Assembly (NCBI RefSeq): GCF_002797815.1
Contig: NZ_PGFJ01000002.1
Span: 868,001-932,000, forward strand
From: Mucilaginibacter auburnensis
GTDB taxonomy: Bacteria; Bacteroidota; Bacteroidia; Sphingobacteriales; Sphingobacteriaceae
DNA: 64,000 nt
Direction of reading: 5' to 3'
A program made the translations under genes and the position numbers. Every line of letters begins with the position of its first letter. The first letter of the stretch is position 1. Shown in pieces: positions 1 to 6,076 of this stretch. The notes under the pieces were generated by a model that saw only the letters and a list, made by a program, of their open reading frames with translations, ran no database searches and was not told the DNA's origin.

Positions 1-561
1 ACGGTTAACATTTTGTTCCAGTAAACGGTAGCCAAACACCTTGGTTAATACGTCAGCAGTAGGCTGCATTTTGTTGGTAGTAATAGTAATGCTATGGAAA
101 CCTTTTACCGCGTTCTCAGCTTTTATCTCATCAGTTTCCCATCCTTTGCGGTTATCTTGGTTTTTAGATTCTATCAACTCAAATTTAAGTCCGTCCGGAT
201 CTAAAAAGGTAAGGTACCTTTCACCAAATTTCTCAGCTACTTTGTTATAGATGACATTGTTGTCTTCCAAACGTTTTTGCCAGAAATCTAAACTTCCTGC
301 AGGCACAGAGTAACCTATCTCGGTAGCTTGTCTTGCGCCTCTTCTGCCCTGCATTATATTGGCCCAAGGGAAGAAGGTAAGTATGGTGCCCGGTGTACCG
401 TATTCATCGCCATAGTAAAAGTGGTAGGTTTCAGGGTCGTCAAAGTTTACGGTTTTTTTAACCATACGTAAGCCCAAAACTTTACTATAAAAATCAAAAT
501 TGCGTTTGGCATTGCCTGCTATTGCAGTGATATGGTGTATGCCGTTGATTGTATTTTTCAT
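1..561 (-). CDS. Ring-cleaving dioxygenase / glyoxalase-fold (VOC) protein, 3' end outside window
   Basis: Only the first 187 codons are in the window; the gene runs off the left edge. The start is the ATG at 561 (MKNTINGIHHITAIAG). HHITAIAG opens the first VOC (glyoxalase/bleomycin-resistance) module, and a second begins near residue 155 with GFHSITITTNKM, giving the two-module layout of MhqO/PcpA-type extradiol dioxygenases. Metal-binding His is expected in HHI, and Glu in FELIES of the first module. The family opens (hydro)quinone or catechol rings with Fe(II) or Mn(II). It is divergent from tRNA-Arg, with a TAnnTTTG box and an FNR-like palindrome upstream. The exact substrate cannot be told from sequence. 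Confidence 0.85.
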   Translation of the reverse strand, partial: MKNTINGIHHITAIAGNAKRNFDFYSKVLGLRMVKKTVNFDDPETYHFYYGDEYGTPGTILTFFPWANIMQGRRGARQATEIGYSVPAGSLDFWQKRLEDNNVIYNKVAEKFGERYLTFLDPDGLKFELIESKNQDNRKGWETDEIKAENAVKGFHSITITTNKMQPTADVLTKVFGYRLLEQNVNR

Positions 562-604
562 GATCTTTTTTATTTTAAATAGTGATTGTTTAATTATTAC
601 ACTA

Positions 605-612
605 CAAAGGTA
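605..612 (-). promoter_or_regulatory. -7 box (TACCTTTG) of the dioxygenase promoter
   Basis: On the minus strand this reads TACCTTTG, a perfect match to the Bacteroidota -7 consensus TAnnTTTG, 43 nt upstream of the ATG. The predicted transcription start is near 600. No TTG -33 box sits at the usual 17-23 bp spacing; an FNR-like palindrome is centred about 41 bp upstream of the predicted start instead. Confidence 0.55.
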
Positions 613-633
613 TAGCTGCTAATAACCCTGCCA

Positions 634-649
634 CTTGATGTACATCAAG
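634..649. promoter_or_regulatory. FNR/CRP-type 16-bp palindromic operator
   Basis: CTTGATGTACATCAAG is a perfect 16-bp palindrome and contains TTGAT-N4-ATCAA, the textbook FNR box. Its centre (641.5) is about -41 from the predicted start of the dioxygenase promoter, the class II activator position, and about -43 from the predicted start of tRNA-Arg on the other strand. That a CRP/FNR-family protein binds here is inference. Confidence 0.5.
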
Positions 650-673
650 AAATAAAAACATCGCTAATTTTAA

Positions 674-681
674 TATCTTTG
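674..681 (+). promoter_or_regulatory. -7 box (TATCTTTG) of the tRNA-Arg promoter
   Basis: TATCTTTG matches TAnnTTTG exactly and lies 10 bp before the mature tRNA 5' end, so the primary transcript would carry a very short leader. No clear TTG -33 element was found at the standard distance. Confidence 0.55.
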
Positions 682-691
682 CCTCCAAACT

Positions 692-763
692 GCTCCCGTA
701 GTTCAATGGATAGAATTATGGTTTCCGGTACCATCGATATGAGTTCGAATCTCGTCGGGAGCA
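692..763 (+). tRNA. tRNA-Arg (anticodon CCG)
   Basis: A 72-nt cloverleaf can be folded by eye. The acceptor arms GCTCCCG and CGGGAGC pair perfectly. The D arm is GTTC/GAAT with GG in the loop. The anticodon stem ATGGT/ACCAT closes the loop TTCCGGT, giving anticodon CCG, which reads CGG (Arg). The T arm is ATGAG-TTCGAAT-CTCGT, with discriminator A. CCA is not encoded (ACAAA follows). A strong terminator follows directly. Confidence 0.95.
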
Positions 764-765
764 CA

Positions 766-800
766 AAAAGCCACCTTCAAAAAGTGGCTTTTCCTTTTTT
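766..800 (+). terminator. Rho-independent terminator of tRNA-Arg
   Basis: Perfect 9-bp stem AAAAGCCAC (766-774) / GTGGCTTTT (784-792) with a 9-nt loop, followed by CCTTTTTT. It begins 3 nt after the tRNA. Confidence 0.85.
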
Positions 801-1025
801 ACCCTCACCCGAACCGAACTAAAAATTCTTATTCATAATTAGATTTAAAAGTTAAAATCTCAAATTAAACCCATTTCTCTAATCACTTTTTAATAAAATT
901 TTAACATAGCAGGTCTTTTACCAAATAAAATATTTCCAAACAGTCATTTTTTCATACGATTTGCATGTTTTAACATATTTTTAAAACACAAAACAGCATT
1001 ATTGGTTATATTTGCCGCTGTGACA

Positions 1026-1367
1026 ATGTTCAACTATTTTAGAAAAGGATATCTGAGGTCGGTATTGCAGATCATGCTGATAGCATTATTCGCTATCAAG
1101 TCATGCGATCTGCTGATCAGCTACTATTCTGCTCAAAATAAAGCTGCAATGATAGAAAATATTGCAGATGACGACAGCAATGATGTTAGCGAGGATAGCT
1201 TTGAAAAAATAGACAAAAAACTATATTCAGGTTTTGAAACCAGCTTTTCTTTCTCGTCACTCCAGTGGGTAAAGCATCTCCCTGCCCCTAAATGCCTATA
1301 TAGTTTCAGCATATTTAAAGAGCCGTTACGCGTGGTTCTCACCCCTCCACCAAATTCTGTATCTTAG
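1026..1367 (+). CDS. Small hypothetical exported/membrane protein
   Basis: 113 aa from the ATG at 1026; an upstream in-frame non-ATG start at 1002 would add only eight residues. The N-terminus is basic (FRKGYLR), then a hydrophobic segment (VLQIMLIALFAI) and SCDLL, so it is a signal or anchor sequence and possibly a lipoprotein signal. An acidic stretch follows (ADDDSNDVSED) and the tail is proline-rich (TPPPNSVS). I do not recognise a domain. It lies 137 bp upstream of the ABC-type export genes on the same strand, so it could be an accessory or cargo protein, but nothing in the sequence proves this. Confidence 0.55.
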   Translation: MFNYFRKGYLRSVLQIMLIALFAIKSCDLLISYYSAQNKAAMIENIADDDSNDVSEDSFEKIDKKLYSGFETSFSFSSLQWVKHLPAPKCLYSFSIFKEPLRVVLTPPPNSVS

Positions 1368-1504
1368 TATACACCTAATTAGCCCGATACTATCGGAGCT
1401 GCATTTAATGTGATACTTAGTTGATTTGAACAATGCAAGGTTTTATGCTTATGCATTACTAACAACACATTACAACCAATTTATAACTGTTTTTAAACTG
1501 TTTT

Positions 1505-2506
1505 ATGAAAAAAAACCAGCATGCAAATGCGCTAACGCCCTGGCAACGCCTGGCGCGTTTACTACACTACGAGCGTTCTACCATTAACTACATTTTTATT
1601 TACGCCATGCTTATTGGCCTTATTGGTTTAACGTTGCCGTTAGGCACCACCGCGGTGTTCAACCTGCTTTCAAACGGGGCCATGTACAGTTCAACTTATA
1701 TACTTATTGCGGTAGTTTTAATAGGTATAGTAATTGGCGGTACGTTACTGATAGGACAGTTTACACTGGTTGAATTCTTAGAGCAAAAAATATTCACTAA
1801 AGCTTCAATGGAGTTTGCCTACCGCCTGCCCCGCATTAAAAAAGATGAATTGAAAGGCGAACATCCACCCGAATTGGTAAACCGTTTTTTTGAGGTACTC
1901 ACCATTCAAAAAGGCCTAACCAAACTACTGATAGACATTGTAGCTGCATCAGTGCAGATCTTTTTCAGTGCAATATTATTATCATTCTATCACCCGGTAT
2001 TTATGGCTGTTGGCTTTTTGGCGATTGTGAGCATTGTTGGGGTAATTGTGCTCTATTATAAGCAGGGTGTAGATACCAGTTTAGATGAATCAGCACATAA
2101 ATACGAACTGGTAGCACGCCTGGAGGAAGTTGCCGGCGACCTGGACGCCTACAGAGGCAACCCTGAAAAAATGGATAGCATCATCAAAACAACCGATGAA
2201 ATTACAGCTCAATACCTTAGTGCACGTAATGCACACTTTAGTGTTTTAAGAAAACTTATAGTAGGTTCAGTAGCGCTGCGTACCGTGCTGATGGGCGCGT
2301 TACTTTTATTAGGCTCATTTTTCGTTGTAGAACGCGAAATGACTTTTGGACAGTTTGTGGCTGCCGAAGTAATTATTGTACAAATCAGCTATGCAGTTGA
2401 AAAATTACTGACCAACATGAATACCGTTTTTGATATGGTTACGGGCAGTGAAAAGCTGGCGGCCGTAACAGACCTTGAGTTATGGGAGGAAAAGCAACAT
2501 GAGTAA
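1505..2506 (+). CDS. ABC exporter membrane domain protein lacking the ATPase domain
   Basis: 333 aa. The protein is a type-I ABC exporter transmembrane domain of the kind fused to nucleotide-binding domains in type 1 secretion and peptide exporters: helices near residues 25-50, 62-85, 135-180 and 250-290, with long cytoplasmic helices between. It ends at residue 333, just where the linker to the ATPase domain would begin. No Walker A, LSGG signature or Walker B occurs in it, nor in the overlapping gene downstream. The reading frame is intact and the next gene starts inside its last codons (8-nt overlap), so this looks designed rather than truncated. The adaptor and outer-membrane genes downstream suggest a tripartite export system. 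Its energy source is unknown. Confidence 0.8.
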   Translation: MKKNQHANALTPWQRLARLLHYERSTINYIFIYAMLIGLIGLTLPLGTTAVFNLLSNGAMYSSTYILIAVVLIGIVIGGTLLIGQFTLVEFLEQKIFTKASMEFAYRLPRIKKDELKGEHPPELVNRFFEVLTIQKGLTKLLIDIVAASVQIFFSAILLSFYHPVFMAVGFLAIVSIVGVIVLYYKQGVDTSLDESAHKYELVARLEEVAGDLDAYRGNPEKMDSIIKTTDEITAQYLSARNAHFSVLRKLIVGSVALRTVLMGALLLLGSFFVVEREMTFGQFVAAEVIIVQISYAVEKLLTNMNTVFDMVTGSEKLAAVTDLELWEEKQHE

Positions 2507-3866
2507 AATGTCAAAAAGCAGAATGCATAATATGCATATGGAAAGCCTGGCATCACTTTCCAACCGCGAAATAATGGATGTAAAAGGCTCGCATTTGCTG
2601 GGCCGTATCATGACCATATTTTTGGTTGTATTCATCATTATACTTTTGCTGCCATGGCGCCAAACCATACCTGGGCGCGGTACGGTTACAGCCTTGAGTC
2701 CGGAAGACAGGCCTCAAACTGTTCAAAACCAAATTGGCGGCCGCATCGAGCGCTGGGCCGTAAAAGACGGACAAGAGGTTAAGAAAGGTGACACTATTTT
2801 AGTAATTTCTGAAACCAGTCAATCTTACTTTGACCCCGAACTGCCAGAACGTTTAAACGAACAGTTAGATGCAAAAAAAGGCAGTGAAGAAGCGGCCATT
2901 CAAAAAATGGAAGCCACAAACGCCCAGATAAGCGCGCTTACAGCCGGGTTACGTTTCCAACTTTCGGCAGCCGAAAACAAAGTAAAGCAGGCGGAGAACT
3001 ATGTTGGTATAGATAGTGCGGAGCTTGTAGCTGTTGAGAATTTTTATGAAACATCAAAAGCGCGGTTACAACGTTATGAGGCAGGTTATAAAAATGGCCT
3101 GTTCTCGCTTACGGATATTGAGACCCGCCGCCTTAAATTGCAGGAAGACAAAGCCAAGGTTGTTACTCAACAAAATAAGCTTAACAACTCCAAACAAGGC
3201 CTGCTTAATGCCCGCATAGACTTGGATAACATCAGGGCCAAATATCAGGAATCATTGGCTAAAGCACAGTCAGATATGAGTTCGGCTTTGTCAAGCCGCG
3301 CAAGCGCACGGGGAGATATTGCCAAGCTGCGTAATGACATATCTAATATTTCGGTCCGTCGCGGGCTATATGTTGTGCGCGCGCCACAGGATGGCTTTGT
3401 TGTAAAAACCCTAAAAGCGGGTATAGGCGAGAATATCAAAGAGGGTGAATCAGTAGTTACATTACAGCCTAAAGATCCACAGGTGGCGGCAGAACTTTAC
3501 GTAGATGCGATGGATGTACCGCTTATTTTAGATACAAGCGATGTACGCCTGCAGTTTGAGGGCTGGCCATCATTACAGTTTTCGGGCTGGCCATCTGTAG
3601 CTGTTGGCACCTTTGCAGGCAAAATATGGGCCATTGACCGTGTGAGCAGCAACGGAGGTAAGTACCGCGTGTTAGTAAAGCCAACAGAACCTATTCCGGC
3701 AAAAGATGAGCCATGGCCGCACCAGCTTAGGCAAGGTTCGGGCGTGTACGGTCGTATTATATTACGCTCTGTGCCGCTGTGGTATGAAATATGGCGCCAG
3801 TTAAATGGTTTCCCGCCAAGTTTAGAAAAAGAGCCGTCTGATAAAATTACTGATGGTAAAAAATAA
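2499..3866 (+). CDS. HlyD-family periplasmic adaptor (membrane fusion) protein
   Basis: 455 aa. I chose the ATG at 2499 because GGGAGG lies 9 nt upstream; an in-frame TTG at 2475 has less support. A cytoplasmic N-terminus of about 40 residues precedes one membrane segment (MTIFLVVFIIILLLPW). Then come the first biotinyl-lipoyl half (residues about 70-105, IERWAVKDGQEVKKGD), a long alpha-helical hairpin rich in Q/K/A (about 115-300), the second lipoyl half (VVRAPQDGFVVKTLKAGI) and a beta-barrel. This is the HlyD/EmrA pattern linking an inner-membrane pump to a TolC-type channel. It overlaps the ABC membrane-domain gene by 8 nt and is followed 9 nt later by the TolC-family gene, so the three are almost certainly co-translated. 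Confidence 0.9.
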   Translation: MSKMSKSRMHNMHMESLASLSNREIMDVKGSHLLGRIMTIFLVVFIIILLLPWRQTIPGRGTVTALSPEDRPQTVQNQIGGRIERWAVKDGQEVKKGDTILVISETSQSYFDPELPERLNEQLDAKKGSEEAAIQKMEATNAQISALTAGLRFQLSAAENKVKQAENYVGIDSAELVAVENFYETSKARLQRYEAGYKNGLFSLTDIETRRLKLQEDKAKVVTQQNKLNNSKQGLLNARIDLDNIRAKYQESLAKAQSDMSSALSSRASARGDIAKLRNDISNISVRRGLYVVRAPQDGFVVKTLKAGIGENIKEGESVVTLQPKDPQVAAELYVDAMDVPLILDTSDVRLQFEGWPSLQFSGWPSVAVGTFAGKIWAIDRVSSNGGKYRVLVKPTEPIPAKDEPWPHQLRQGSGVYGRIILRSVPLWYEIWRQLNGFPPSLEKEPSDKITDGKK

Positions 3867-3875
3867 GATTTAACA

Positions 3876-5345
3876 ATGAGCATGATGTTGAGATGGAAAG
3901 GGTATATAGCCGCACTGTTATTAGGGCTGGCAGCTTGTTTAAACAGCGCCTCGGCCCAAACAACCGCACCTGCTGATACCGATAAAGTATTTTCGCTTGA
4001 GGACCTTGAAGGAATTGTGTTCAGGGGCCACCCTATAGTCAAACAAGCCGCGCTTTTAAGCGAAGCGGCAAAGGCCAACGTAATGCAATCATTAGGATAT
4101 TTTGATCCGGCATTAAAAAGCAGCTTTGCCCGCAAGTTATTTGGCGGCACCGAATACTACAACAACTGGAGCAATGAACTTAAAGTTCCTTTGTATATAG
4201 CGGGCGCTGACCTGAAAGTTGGCTATGACCGTAACGTAGGTACATACACCGGCAGGGAGAACCGAACCGGCACAGACGGCCTTGCAGCCGTAGGCTTAAG
4301 TATTCCGCTTGGCCAGGGTTTGCTGATAGATGCGCGAAGAAGCACACTTTGGCAGGCACAAGCCATGCTTACCTATGCCGAAGCCGATAAGGTGAAACAA
4401 ATTAACAGCGTTTGGTATACCGCTGTTAAAGATTATTGGACCTGGTATTATTCGTATCGTGAATACGCACTGGTAAAAGAAGGGGTTGATTTGGCAAGTA
4501 AACGCTTTAAGGCGTTAAGCGCGCAAACGCTTTTAGGAGATAAACCACCTATTGATTCGGTTGAGGCACAGATAACCTTGCAGGAACGGCAGATACAGTT
4601 AGCAAAAAGCGCCATAGAAATGCAAAACGCTATGCTGGTGCTCTCCAATCATTTGTGGAACGAGCAGAGCCAACCGCTCGAATTGCCAAAAAATGCGGTA
4701 CCGCAAACGGTAAACGAGAACGTGATGCTTCCCGGTGCTATGGTGCTTGATACCTTGCTCGGGCAAGCCGGAAGACAACACCCGGAACTGGTAAAATTAA
4801 GAGCTAAAGGCACGCAGTTAGACATAGAGCGCCGCTACCGCCAGGAAATGCTTAAGCCTAAAATAAACGTAACCGGTTCATTAATATCAACGCGCAGAGA
4901 CTTTACACAATACGTACCGAGTTATTATGATTTTAACTGGAGCAACTACAAGTTTGGAGTGGAGTTTGCCTTTCCATTGTTTTTGCGGGCTGAGCGCGGT
5001 AAGTTAAGGGAAGTAAAAATTAAACAACAACAACTGAGTTACGATCTTCAACAATCCGGACGCGAGATCAACAACGAAATTGTAACATCATACAACAGTC
5101 TAAGCGCCTACAAATCTCAATTGAGCGTTCAGGTACAAAGCATCAATAATCAACAATTTTTATTAACCGGCGAAATGCAAAAATTTGAGTTAGGTGAGAG
5201 CACGCTCTTCCTCATCAACAGCAGGGAAAGTAAGCTTATCGACATGAAAATTAAACGCGAAAGCATGATAGCAGGCTACCAAAAAACACTTGCCGAGCTA
5301 TACTACAAAGCTGGAACCCGACAAGCGCAGGCAGATTTGCAGTAA
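3876..5345 (+). CDS. TolC-family outer-membrane efflux protein
   Basis: 489 aa. The signal peptide is hydrophobic (AALLLGLAACLNSASAQ) with a likely ASA-Q cleavage site; LAAC could instead act as a lipobox, as in OprM relatives. The mature part shows the long helical repeats of OEP proteins, such as ALLSEAAKANVMQSLGYFDP near the N-terminus and VQSINNQQFLLTGEMQKFEL near the C-terminus; GESTLFLINSRESKLIDMK is typical of the second repeat. It would form the trimeric outer-membrane channel of the export system encoded just upstream. ATGs at 3882 and 3885 are possible alternative starts. Confidence 0.9.
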   Translation: MSMMLRWKGYIAALLLGLAACLNSASAQTTAPADTDKVFSLEDLEGIVFRGHPIVKQAALLSEAAKANVMQSLGYFDPALKSSFARKLFGGTEYYNNWSNELKVPLYIAGADLKVGYDRNVGTYTGRENRTGTDGLAAVGLSIPLGQGLLIDARRSTLWQAQAMLTYAEADKVKQINSVWYTAVKDYWTWYYSYREYALVKEGVDLASKRFKALSAQTLLGDKPPIDSVEAQITLQERQIQLAKSAIEMQNAMLVLSNHLWNEQSQPLELPKNAVPQTVNENVMLPGAMVLDTLLGQAGRQHPELVKLRAKGTQLDIERRYRQEMLKPKINVTGSLISTRRDFTQYVPSYYDFNWSNYKFGVEFAFPLFLRAERGKLREVKIKQQQLSYDLQQSGREINNEIVTSYNSLSAYKSQLSVQVQSINNQQFLLTGEMQKFELGESTLFLINSRESKLIDMKIKRESMIAGYQKTLAELYYKAGTRQAQADLQ

Positions 5346-5434
5346 TAACTTCGGAAAACACCTGTTTGCTTTCTTTTTATAAAAGAGAAAAACTTAAATT
5401 GATTTGAAACTGTTCATATTAAAAAATTAACACT

Positions 5435-5635
5435 ATGAACATTATCAAATTTGCCTTGGTAGGCGCAGCAGTAGCCTACGGCGTGAACTATATCACCAAA
5501 AAAAGAGAAGACGGTACATCTATCTTAGATGAGTTTTTAGACAACCCACCAAGTTGGATGAATGATGCAAAAGAGTTTGCAACACAAACCATCAATGATG
5601 TTAAGCAAAACTTTAACGATAACCAGCCGCGATGA
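5435..5635 (+). CDS. Small YtxH-like membrane-associated protein
   Basis: 66 aa: a short N-terminal hydrophobic segment (IIKFALVGAAVAYGVNYI), a basic turn (TKKRED) and an amphipathic C-terminus (FATQTINDVKQNFND), resembling YtxH-type small proteins. Function unknown. Its TGA overlaps the ATG of the next gene (ATGA), so the two are translationally coupled. It starts 89 bp after the TolC-family gene and may belong to the same transcript. Confidence 0.6.
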   Translation: MNIIKFALVGAAVAYGVNYITKKREDGTSILDEFLDNPPSWMNDAKEFATQTINDVKQNFNDNQPR

Positions 5636-5817
5636 ATAAGTTTTTCAGAGTATTAATTGCCGGTTGGGGCGCCAAAAAGTTGGGAGGTGGCTGCCTCTCA
5701 ACTATTGTAATTTTCATTATTATTTACACTTTATTAGGCAAGTGTGGTAATGATTCAAAAGCAGCAGCGAATAACGCTTCGGTAAAAACGCCGGTAGCCA
5801 TTTGCAATACAAAATAA
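5632..5817 (+). CDS. Small membrane protein, unknown function
   Basis: 61 aa. A basic, glycine-rich N-terminus (GWGAKKLGGGCLS) leads into one hydrophobic segment (TIVIFIIIYTLL), then a short polar tail ending ICNTK. It starts on the ATGA overlap with the preceding small gene. Its stop codon lies inside a bidirectional terminator. No known domain recognised. Confidence 0.55.
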   Translation: MNKFFRVLIAGWGAKKLGGGCLSTIVIFIIIYTLLGKCGNDSKAAANNASVKTPVAICNTK

Positions 5818-5850
5818 AGGGCTGGCTTTAACTTGTCTGCCCTTTATTTT
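5811..5850. terminator. Bidirectional terminator overlapping the end of one gene
   Basis: AAAATAAAGGGC (5811-5822) and GCCCTTTATTTT (5839-5850) form a perfect 12-bp stem with T-runs on either strand. The plus-strand gene stop (TAA 5815-5817) lies inside the left arm, and the minus-strand gene stop (5828-5830) lies in the loop. Confidence 0.8.
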
Positions 5851-6076
5851 CCCAATGATCTTTCATGGTACCGTCTGATAGCTTTTTTAGCGTTCTGGCA
5901 AAGCGCTCACCTTTAATTTGCCCATCGGCATTTTTCCTGCCAACAAATAGTAAAACAGGCCTGCCCTCTCCATCGGTTTTAAAAACCACGTCGGTACGGT
6001 CCAGTTGAAATTCCATCTTTGCATCCGGCGGATAAATCTTATCTAACAGTTTTTGTAATCTTACTCCTATTTTCAT
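5828..6076 (-). CDS. Conserved hypothetical protein (82 aa)
   Basis: 82 aa, starting at the ATG at 6076 (MKIGVRLQ). On the minus strand AGGGAAT lies directly before it, which favours this start over one eight codons upstream. The protein is basic and soluble: KLLDKIYPPDAKMEFQ, then VVFKTDGEGRPVLLFVGRKN, and a C-terminus (GERFARTLKK) with no membrane segment. The strand-like pattern suggests a small alpha/beta domain. I do not recognise the family. Confidence 0.55.
   Translation of the reverse strand: MKIGVRLQKLLDKIYPPDAKMEFQLDRTDVVFKTDGEGRPVLLFVGRKNADGQIKGERFARTLKKLSDGTMKDHWENKGQTS

Follow-up and report, generated by a model that had tools for sequence, protein, structure and literature searches.

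The window examined here, a stretch of 64,000 nucleotides (nt) from Mucilaginibacter auburnensis (contig NZ_PGFJ01000002.1, positions 868,001 to 932,000), carries three adjoining genes in the layout of a type 1 secretion system. They encode the transmembrane domain (TMD) of an ATP-binding cassette (ABC) exporter, a HlyD-type adaptor and a TolC-type channel, which we call the triad (Table 1). The TMD protein, of 333 amino acids (aa), has no nucleotide-binding domain (NBD) and so no ATPase motor of its own. The original prediction had described exactly this, a type 1 secretion layout minus its motor with the frame of the ABC-type gene intact, and it stood up: the HlyD and TolC genes adjoin a TMD gene without an NBD, the coordinates and protein length are as predicted, the TMD and HlyD genes share 8 nt (2499-2506), and 9 nt (3867-3875) separate the HlyD and TolC genes.

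Table 1. Coordinates of the triad, of residues in its TMD gene, and of the upstream gene, in window positions
Feature	Position	Strand	Remarks
Exporter membrane domain (TMD) gene, 333 aa	1505..2506	+	type IV (type I exporter) ABC TMD; stops at the TMD/NBD boundary; no NBD
HlyD-type periplasmic adaptor gene, 455 aa	2499..3866	+	ATG start; Pfam HlyD_3 and Biotin_lipoyl_2
TolC-type outer membrane channel gene, 489 aa	3876..5345	+	Pfam OEP (PF02321), 106 bits
Predicted coupling helix 1, residues 113-116, retained	codons 1841..1852	+	AlphaFold model
Predicted coupling helix 2, residues 213-216, retained	codons 2141..2152	+	AlphaFold model
Glu288 codon, in predicted transmembrane helix 6 (TM6; 281-303)	2366..2368	+	invariant in aligned members; not in canonical exporters of the same genome
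Small protein gene, 113 aa	1026..1367	+	N-terminal hydrophobic stretch, TPPP tail; upstream of the triad

Domains and predicted fold of the triad proteins

Pfam placed the 333-aa protein in ABC_membrane (PF00664) at 31.6 bits, over the cut-off of 28. Its single further match, to ThylakoidFormat, fell under that model's own cut-off, and the same scan did not find PF00005 in the protein, which ends at residue 333. The fused ATPase of type 1 secretion, with Walker A, signature, Walker B and H-loop, is thus missing from this protein, and the HlyD-family adaptor and TolC-family channel of such systems are encoded alongside it. The adaptor matched TIGR01843 at 8.1e-20 and 71 bits, under the model cut-off of 208.65, and none of the NCBIfam models listed for the three window proteins and for six proteins of the NBD-bearing long form (see below) that we scanned reached its cut-off.

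An AlphaFold model of the 333-aa protein as a monomer, built on a 74-row alignment, had a pLDDT of 87 and a pTM of 0.79. Superposition of the model gave a Z of 26.8 for HlyB (8dck_A; 324 residues, 2.7 A) and of 27.3 for TmrAB (6rai_B; 320 residues, 2.5 A). The predicted structure is a complete type IV ABC exporter TMD fold, with six helices and cytosolic stems; its short helices 113-116 and 213-216 occupy the places at which the two coupling helices would be expected.

Short and long forms and the decay of the motor

Homologues of the same kind, which we call short forms, number 60 sequences, 56 of them distinct, as some represent the same genome present in two collections. All 60 are 330-339 aa long, so that the length, which the original prediction had proposed to check, is conserved, and the lowest identity to the window protein is 50%. 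The reading frame is therefore no artefact, and K317, T322 and D323 of its C-terminal tail are invariant in the 38 short sequences left after removal of near-copies. An NBD in nearly all close relatives had been named there as the sign of a recent truncation, and no relative found at 50% identity or above has one. Recent truncation or frameshift is ruled out by the 60 short homologues and by the start of the HlyD gene inside the end of the TMD gene, so that an NBD could not fit there in a different frame.

Among 121 genomes of the same family, 47 had a match, never more than one per genome. Sixteen matches were short forms at 62-100% identity; the remaining 31, at 33-41% identity, had frames of 551-611 aa, except one cut by a contig end. 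Across 395 genomes of the phylum, 98 had a match; all seven places at 50% identity or above were short, and matches at 46% or below had frames of 499-839 aa, bar one fragment. In this phylum survey the short form occurs in three families of one class. A scan of named genomes, partly overlapping the other surveys, turned up another set of 41 short loci, from Mucilaginibacter, Pedobacter, Chitinophaga, [Flexibacter], Hymenobacter and other Bacteroidetes.

Could the triad be a non-functional remnant in the course of being lost? The motor is gone, and 74 of the 121 family genomes have neither form, as a remnant would predict. Against this stand the constant length, the spread over three families, and the triad itself, complete in 43 of 44 short loci (the exception being L071, where no TolC match was found), with an identical 8-nt TMD/HlyD overlap in 35 of the 43. 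The ratio of nonsynonymous to synonymous substitution (dN/dS) was likewise low, 0.018-0.063 in five pairs, though at dS of 1.8-4.4, which is near saturation; seven further pairs gave no computable value. We consider a decaying remnant highly improbable.

Relatives that keep an NBD (long forms) all lie at 46% identity or less to the window protein, and the same triad is present in the 37 long-form loci that we took with their context. We tallied NBD motifs in 110 relatives (111 of 122 non-short places were fetched, and L025, cut by a contig end, was not tallied). Walker A, GK[ST], is kept in 108 of the 110, the aspartate-glutamate pair of Walker B (DE) in 26, the H-loop histidine in 20 and the signature, xSxG[QEM], in 8; in 83 relatives the signature, the Walker B/catalytic pair and the H-loop histidine are all lost together. 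None of the 20 relatives with both DE and histidine exceeds 36.1% identity to the window protein. As a control, seven canonical exporters of the same genome scored seven for Walker A, seven for the signature, six for the histidine and five for DE. That most motor parts have decayed in these more distant relatives suggests a machine powered by something other than an ATPase of its own.

Heterodimeric ABC exporters such as TM287/288, TmrAB and BmrCD have one NBD without catalytic residues. The present family differs in that 83 of 110 long forms lose signature, DE and histidine in one polypeptide, and in that the short form lacks the NBD entirely. With all three missing from a single chain, both ATP sites would be expected to fail, also in a heterodimer. 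A strict motif scan found an extra NBD-like gene near the triad in only two of the 37 long-form loci (L158 and L169). For TmrAB, the loss of catalytic residues in one of the two NBDs is reported in PMC8277102.

The phylogeny of the TMD suggests an order for these losses. Our first TMD tree and its alignment covered 38 of the 60 short forms and, of the 37 long-form loci taken with context, all but L143. The short forms make one clade (100/99), with the long form L142 as sister (100/94); together with L142 and four more long forms they make a 43-row clade (99/98), and all five of these NBDs are degenerate. A wider quick tree took in 109 of the 110 motif-scored relatives (L250 omitted) and 12 short forms. 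It repeats an earlier sampled tree in which 30 of 82 DE-less relatives had been dropped at random and L143, L135 and L250 filtered, and which missed L253 and L254 on the DE side. On one side of the deepest split in the quick tree are 20 rows with DE and histidine, four with DE only and two without DE (L253 and L254); on the other are 82 rows without DE, the 12 short forms and one row with DE (L036). Motor state changes six times on this tree, against a mean of 35.2 for shuffled labels, and the short forms share a clade of 18 rows with six relatives that lack DE. The state with DE and histidine would be the ancestral one, on a tree to which the tool gives no root. Because the short clade nests among relatives with lost hydrolysis motifs, the motor probably died before it was deleted.

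Two further cases may represent decay elsewhere in the family. A full-length long form of 552 aa (L143:5729-7387, match strand; genome G164) has an NBD region without even Walker A. As the TMD sequences nearest to its own are those of other long forms (48-52% identity among the rows listed), it looks like a separate decay of the motor. L253 and L254 (genomes G252 and G230; 30% identity), on the DE-keeping side of the tree, retain Walker A and have lost DE and histidine, possibly a further separate decay.

A distant branch occurs on plasmids of Sphingomonadales (alphaproteobacteria), with 15 plasmid records found and 11 fetched (L257-L267). Walker A is gone in all 11. In the 10 that have the NBD in full (all but the truncated L259), neither DE nor the H-loop histidine is present, and PF00005 was missing or under its cut-off in the four that we scanned. 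The gene order ABC-HlyD-TolC holds in eight of these loci, where annotated as such. On plasmid pHAL16 of Sphingobium sp. KCTC 72723 (L257:1-5664), a DUF2309 gene, which we take to be DabA-type, and a 438-aa open reading frame (ORF) precede the ABC gene with the dead motor. As far as the incomplete PLSDB annotation shows, none of the other seven Sphingomonadales triad loci with annotation has such a link to a DabA-type gene. Taken together, the sequences point to surviving stages of motor decay: some still have the hydrolysis motifs, others have Walker A but not those motifs, others lack the P-loop too, and the short forms lack the whole NBD.

Neighbouring genes and the search for a substitute motor

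The TMD might instead recruit a motor from another locus, either an NBD or a full ABC half-transporter, as happens in ABC systems whose TMD and NBD are encoded by separate genes. It retains its coupling helices and its predicted fold resembles those of full HlyB and TmrAB, as such recruitment would lead us to expect, and there is a reported precedent in YddA relatives, in which TMD and NBD are separate genes, once in a different operon (PMC13316013). We searched 28 genomes, 19 with the short form and nine free of the triad, with a profile of the NBD of this family. Among the matches listed, all frames were 576-775 aa, with no lone NBD, and best scores were alike in short-form and triad-free genomes. 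In the 42 short loci compared, no NBD gene turned up repeatedly next to the triad.

We also examined 21 lone NBDs of the window genome, five of which have no obvious membrane neighbour by hydrophobicity count (C2:501613, a 417-aa frame, was not fetched, and L181, with a membrane neighbour some genes away, was not classified). By NCBIfam, four of the five are LptB-like, over the cut-off, or have MacB, LolD or FtsE as best match, under the cut-offs. The fifth, of 218 aa (L194:3963-4616; C2:634262-634915), had no NCBIfam match at E 1e-45. It is present at E 1e-40 in 19 of the 28 genomes, 11 of the 19 with the short form and eight of the nine without the triad, and we rejected it as a trans-acting motor because its occurrence across genomes does not go with that of the short TMD. 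These results, with the degenerate state of the nearest NBD-bearing relatives, make an NBD in trans less likely, and we regard this explanation as unlikely overall. The original prediction had offered a borrowed ATPase and another energy source as options. The first found no support among the neighbours, in the lone-NBD search among the matches listed, or in L194; the second fits best, because the NBDs of the sister groups are degenerate.

The gene that does recur widely next to the short triad is the small protein gene of Table 1. BLAST clustering placed it ahead of the triad in 30 of 42 loci, and five others look likely from the alignment. By sequence, the protein was found in six of the 19 short-form genomes, always adjoining the triad, and in none of the nine triad-free genomes searched; no Pfam family matched it. 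No other gene family adjoining the short triad recurs in more than six of the 42 loci. In long-form loci the upstream ORF resembles a TetR-type regulator in 19 of 37, and the single one tested matches PF00440. In the window, a tRNA-Arg gene (ccg) lies upstream of the small protein gene, at 692-764, and is the sole tRNA gene found in the window; an Rfam search over 560-5900 returned nothing besides this tRNA. We found no convincing pair for the Bacteroidota promoter pattern upstream of the triad.

Conserved residues and a possible ion-driven mechanism

Nine polar residues are invariant in all 74 aligned members: N126, R127, Q135, K136, S196, K199, R241, H244 and E288. Conservation is strong in TM6 and in the stem of intracellular loop 1 (ICL1). 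K199, R241, H244 and E288 occur in none of the seven canonical exporters of the same genome, and K136, Q135 and N126 in one each, with an alignment that is uncertain at such distance. E288 and the motifs NRxF, QK and GQLVAAE are kept in all 11 Sphingomonadales relatives.

These residues bear on a further alternative, akin to the scaffold that the original prediction had also offered, that the TMD is an anchor or gated conduit that holds HlyD and TolC while another transporter, or passive release, moves the substrate. HlyD-type adaptors also serve non-ABC pumps, and strong conservation of TM6 and the ICL1 stem is equally expected of a structural role. Against an anchor, K199, R241, H244 and E288 separate the 74 members from the canonical exporters, so the TMD looks like more than a scaffold, and beyond the small upstream gene the neighbourhood offers no recurrent partner. 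We consider the anchor doubtful.

The explanation we favour, with somewhat less than even confidence, is an exporter without ATP hydrolysis of its own, whose TMD would most likely be a secondary, ion-coupled exporter comparable to SbmA. A full ABC exporter would have been the ancestor of the inner-membrane part of a TMD-HlyD-TolC envelope exporter. Hydrolysis motifs would have been lost first, with Walker A usually kept, and the whole NBD deleted later in the short clade, leaving a system that would need no ATP hydrolysis from a built-in NBD. The TMD would then couple export to an ion, as SbmA does for import. Candidate residues for the coupling or for the substrate are E288 in TM6 and the cytosolic-stem charges K136 and K199, joined in most members by R241 and H244. 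Ion coupling is favoured because SbmA, an NBD-less relative of another group of ABC exporters, uses protonatable glutamates (PMC13316013).

A Pfam scan of the window protein at E 0.1 returned neither SbmA_BacA nor ABC_membrane_2, which we take to be the names of the SbmA-family models, and thus gave no sign of membership by sequence. SbmA is described as an NBD-less ABC-type TMD driven by protons, its NBD is proposed to have been lost by descent from a full transporter, and SbmA/BacA (SbmA-like peptide transporters, SLiPT) have lost the coupling helices as well (PMC13316013). The window protein resembles SbmA/BacA in its ABC-exporter-type TMD, in loss of the NBD by descent and in having embedded glutamate in the TMD. 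Unlike SbmA/BacA, it belongs to PF00664, comes with an adaptor and an outer membrane channel, and has lost the NBD with helices 113-116 and 213-216 still in place. Its layout implies export, and it has one conserved TM6 glutamate (E288) together with acids in the cytosolic stems. With HlyB/HlyD/TolC- and peptidase-containing ABC transporter (PCAT)-type secretion (LssB, PrtD, NHLM, PCAT1) it shares the gene order TMD-adaptor-channel, the TMD fold, and the HlyD and OEP families; it differs from HlyB/PCAT-type systems in having neither NBD nor peptidase domain.

Several observations weigh against ion-coupled export. Walker A persists in 108 of the 110 NBD-bearing relatives, so nucleotide binding seems to matter in them, and a signature-like L[ST]xGE is kept in four of the 10 Sphingomonadales relatives with a complete NBD. 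E288 is also present in DE-keeping relatives and so did not arise with motor loss. In the Sphingomonadales relatives R241 is replaced by H in 11 of 11 and H244 by Y in six of 11, and R127 is shared by four of the seven canonical exporters, as far as their uncertain alignment with the family shows. The model keeps the coupling helices that SbmA has lost, and their variability in the short clade is not clearly above that in the long forms. Relaxed constraint on these helices, considered as a sign that no NBD docks, was therefore uninformative as a test. Three charged residues that the short clade has gained (E93, R249 and R277) do not appear to lie deep in the membrane, going by the helix limits of the model. 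We saw no clear sign that acidic residues were acquired within the membrane when the motor was lost: E93 was gained, but far along the long TM2, in what the model suggests is its cytosolic extension.

ABC exporters are defined by their ATPase and, to our knowledge, the only known NBD-less descendants of ABC exporters are SbmA-type importers. We found no description of a type 1 triad with a missing or degenerate NBD in titles and abstracts of the open-licence literature. More tentatively than for the window system itself, we propose that tripartite exporters of Bacteroidota and Sphingomonadales may have turned, apparently more than once, to ATP-independent export, with a TMD carrying a family-specific TM6 glutamate as an ion-driven secondary exporter. 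The triad would represent a second NBD-less lineage, within a type 1 secretion layout and with relatives at differing stages of motor decay, which makes both the function of an ABC TMD without ATP hydrolysis and the interconversion of primary and secondary transport directly testable. Genes annotated as ABC transporter ATP-binding proteins, among them several of the Sphingomonadales ones, may have no working ATPase. If the proposal is true, these bacteria secrete by a route that uses an ABC fold but lacks an ATPase.

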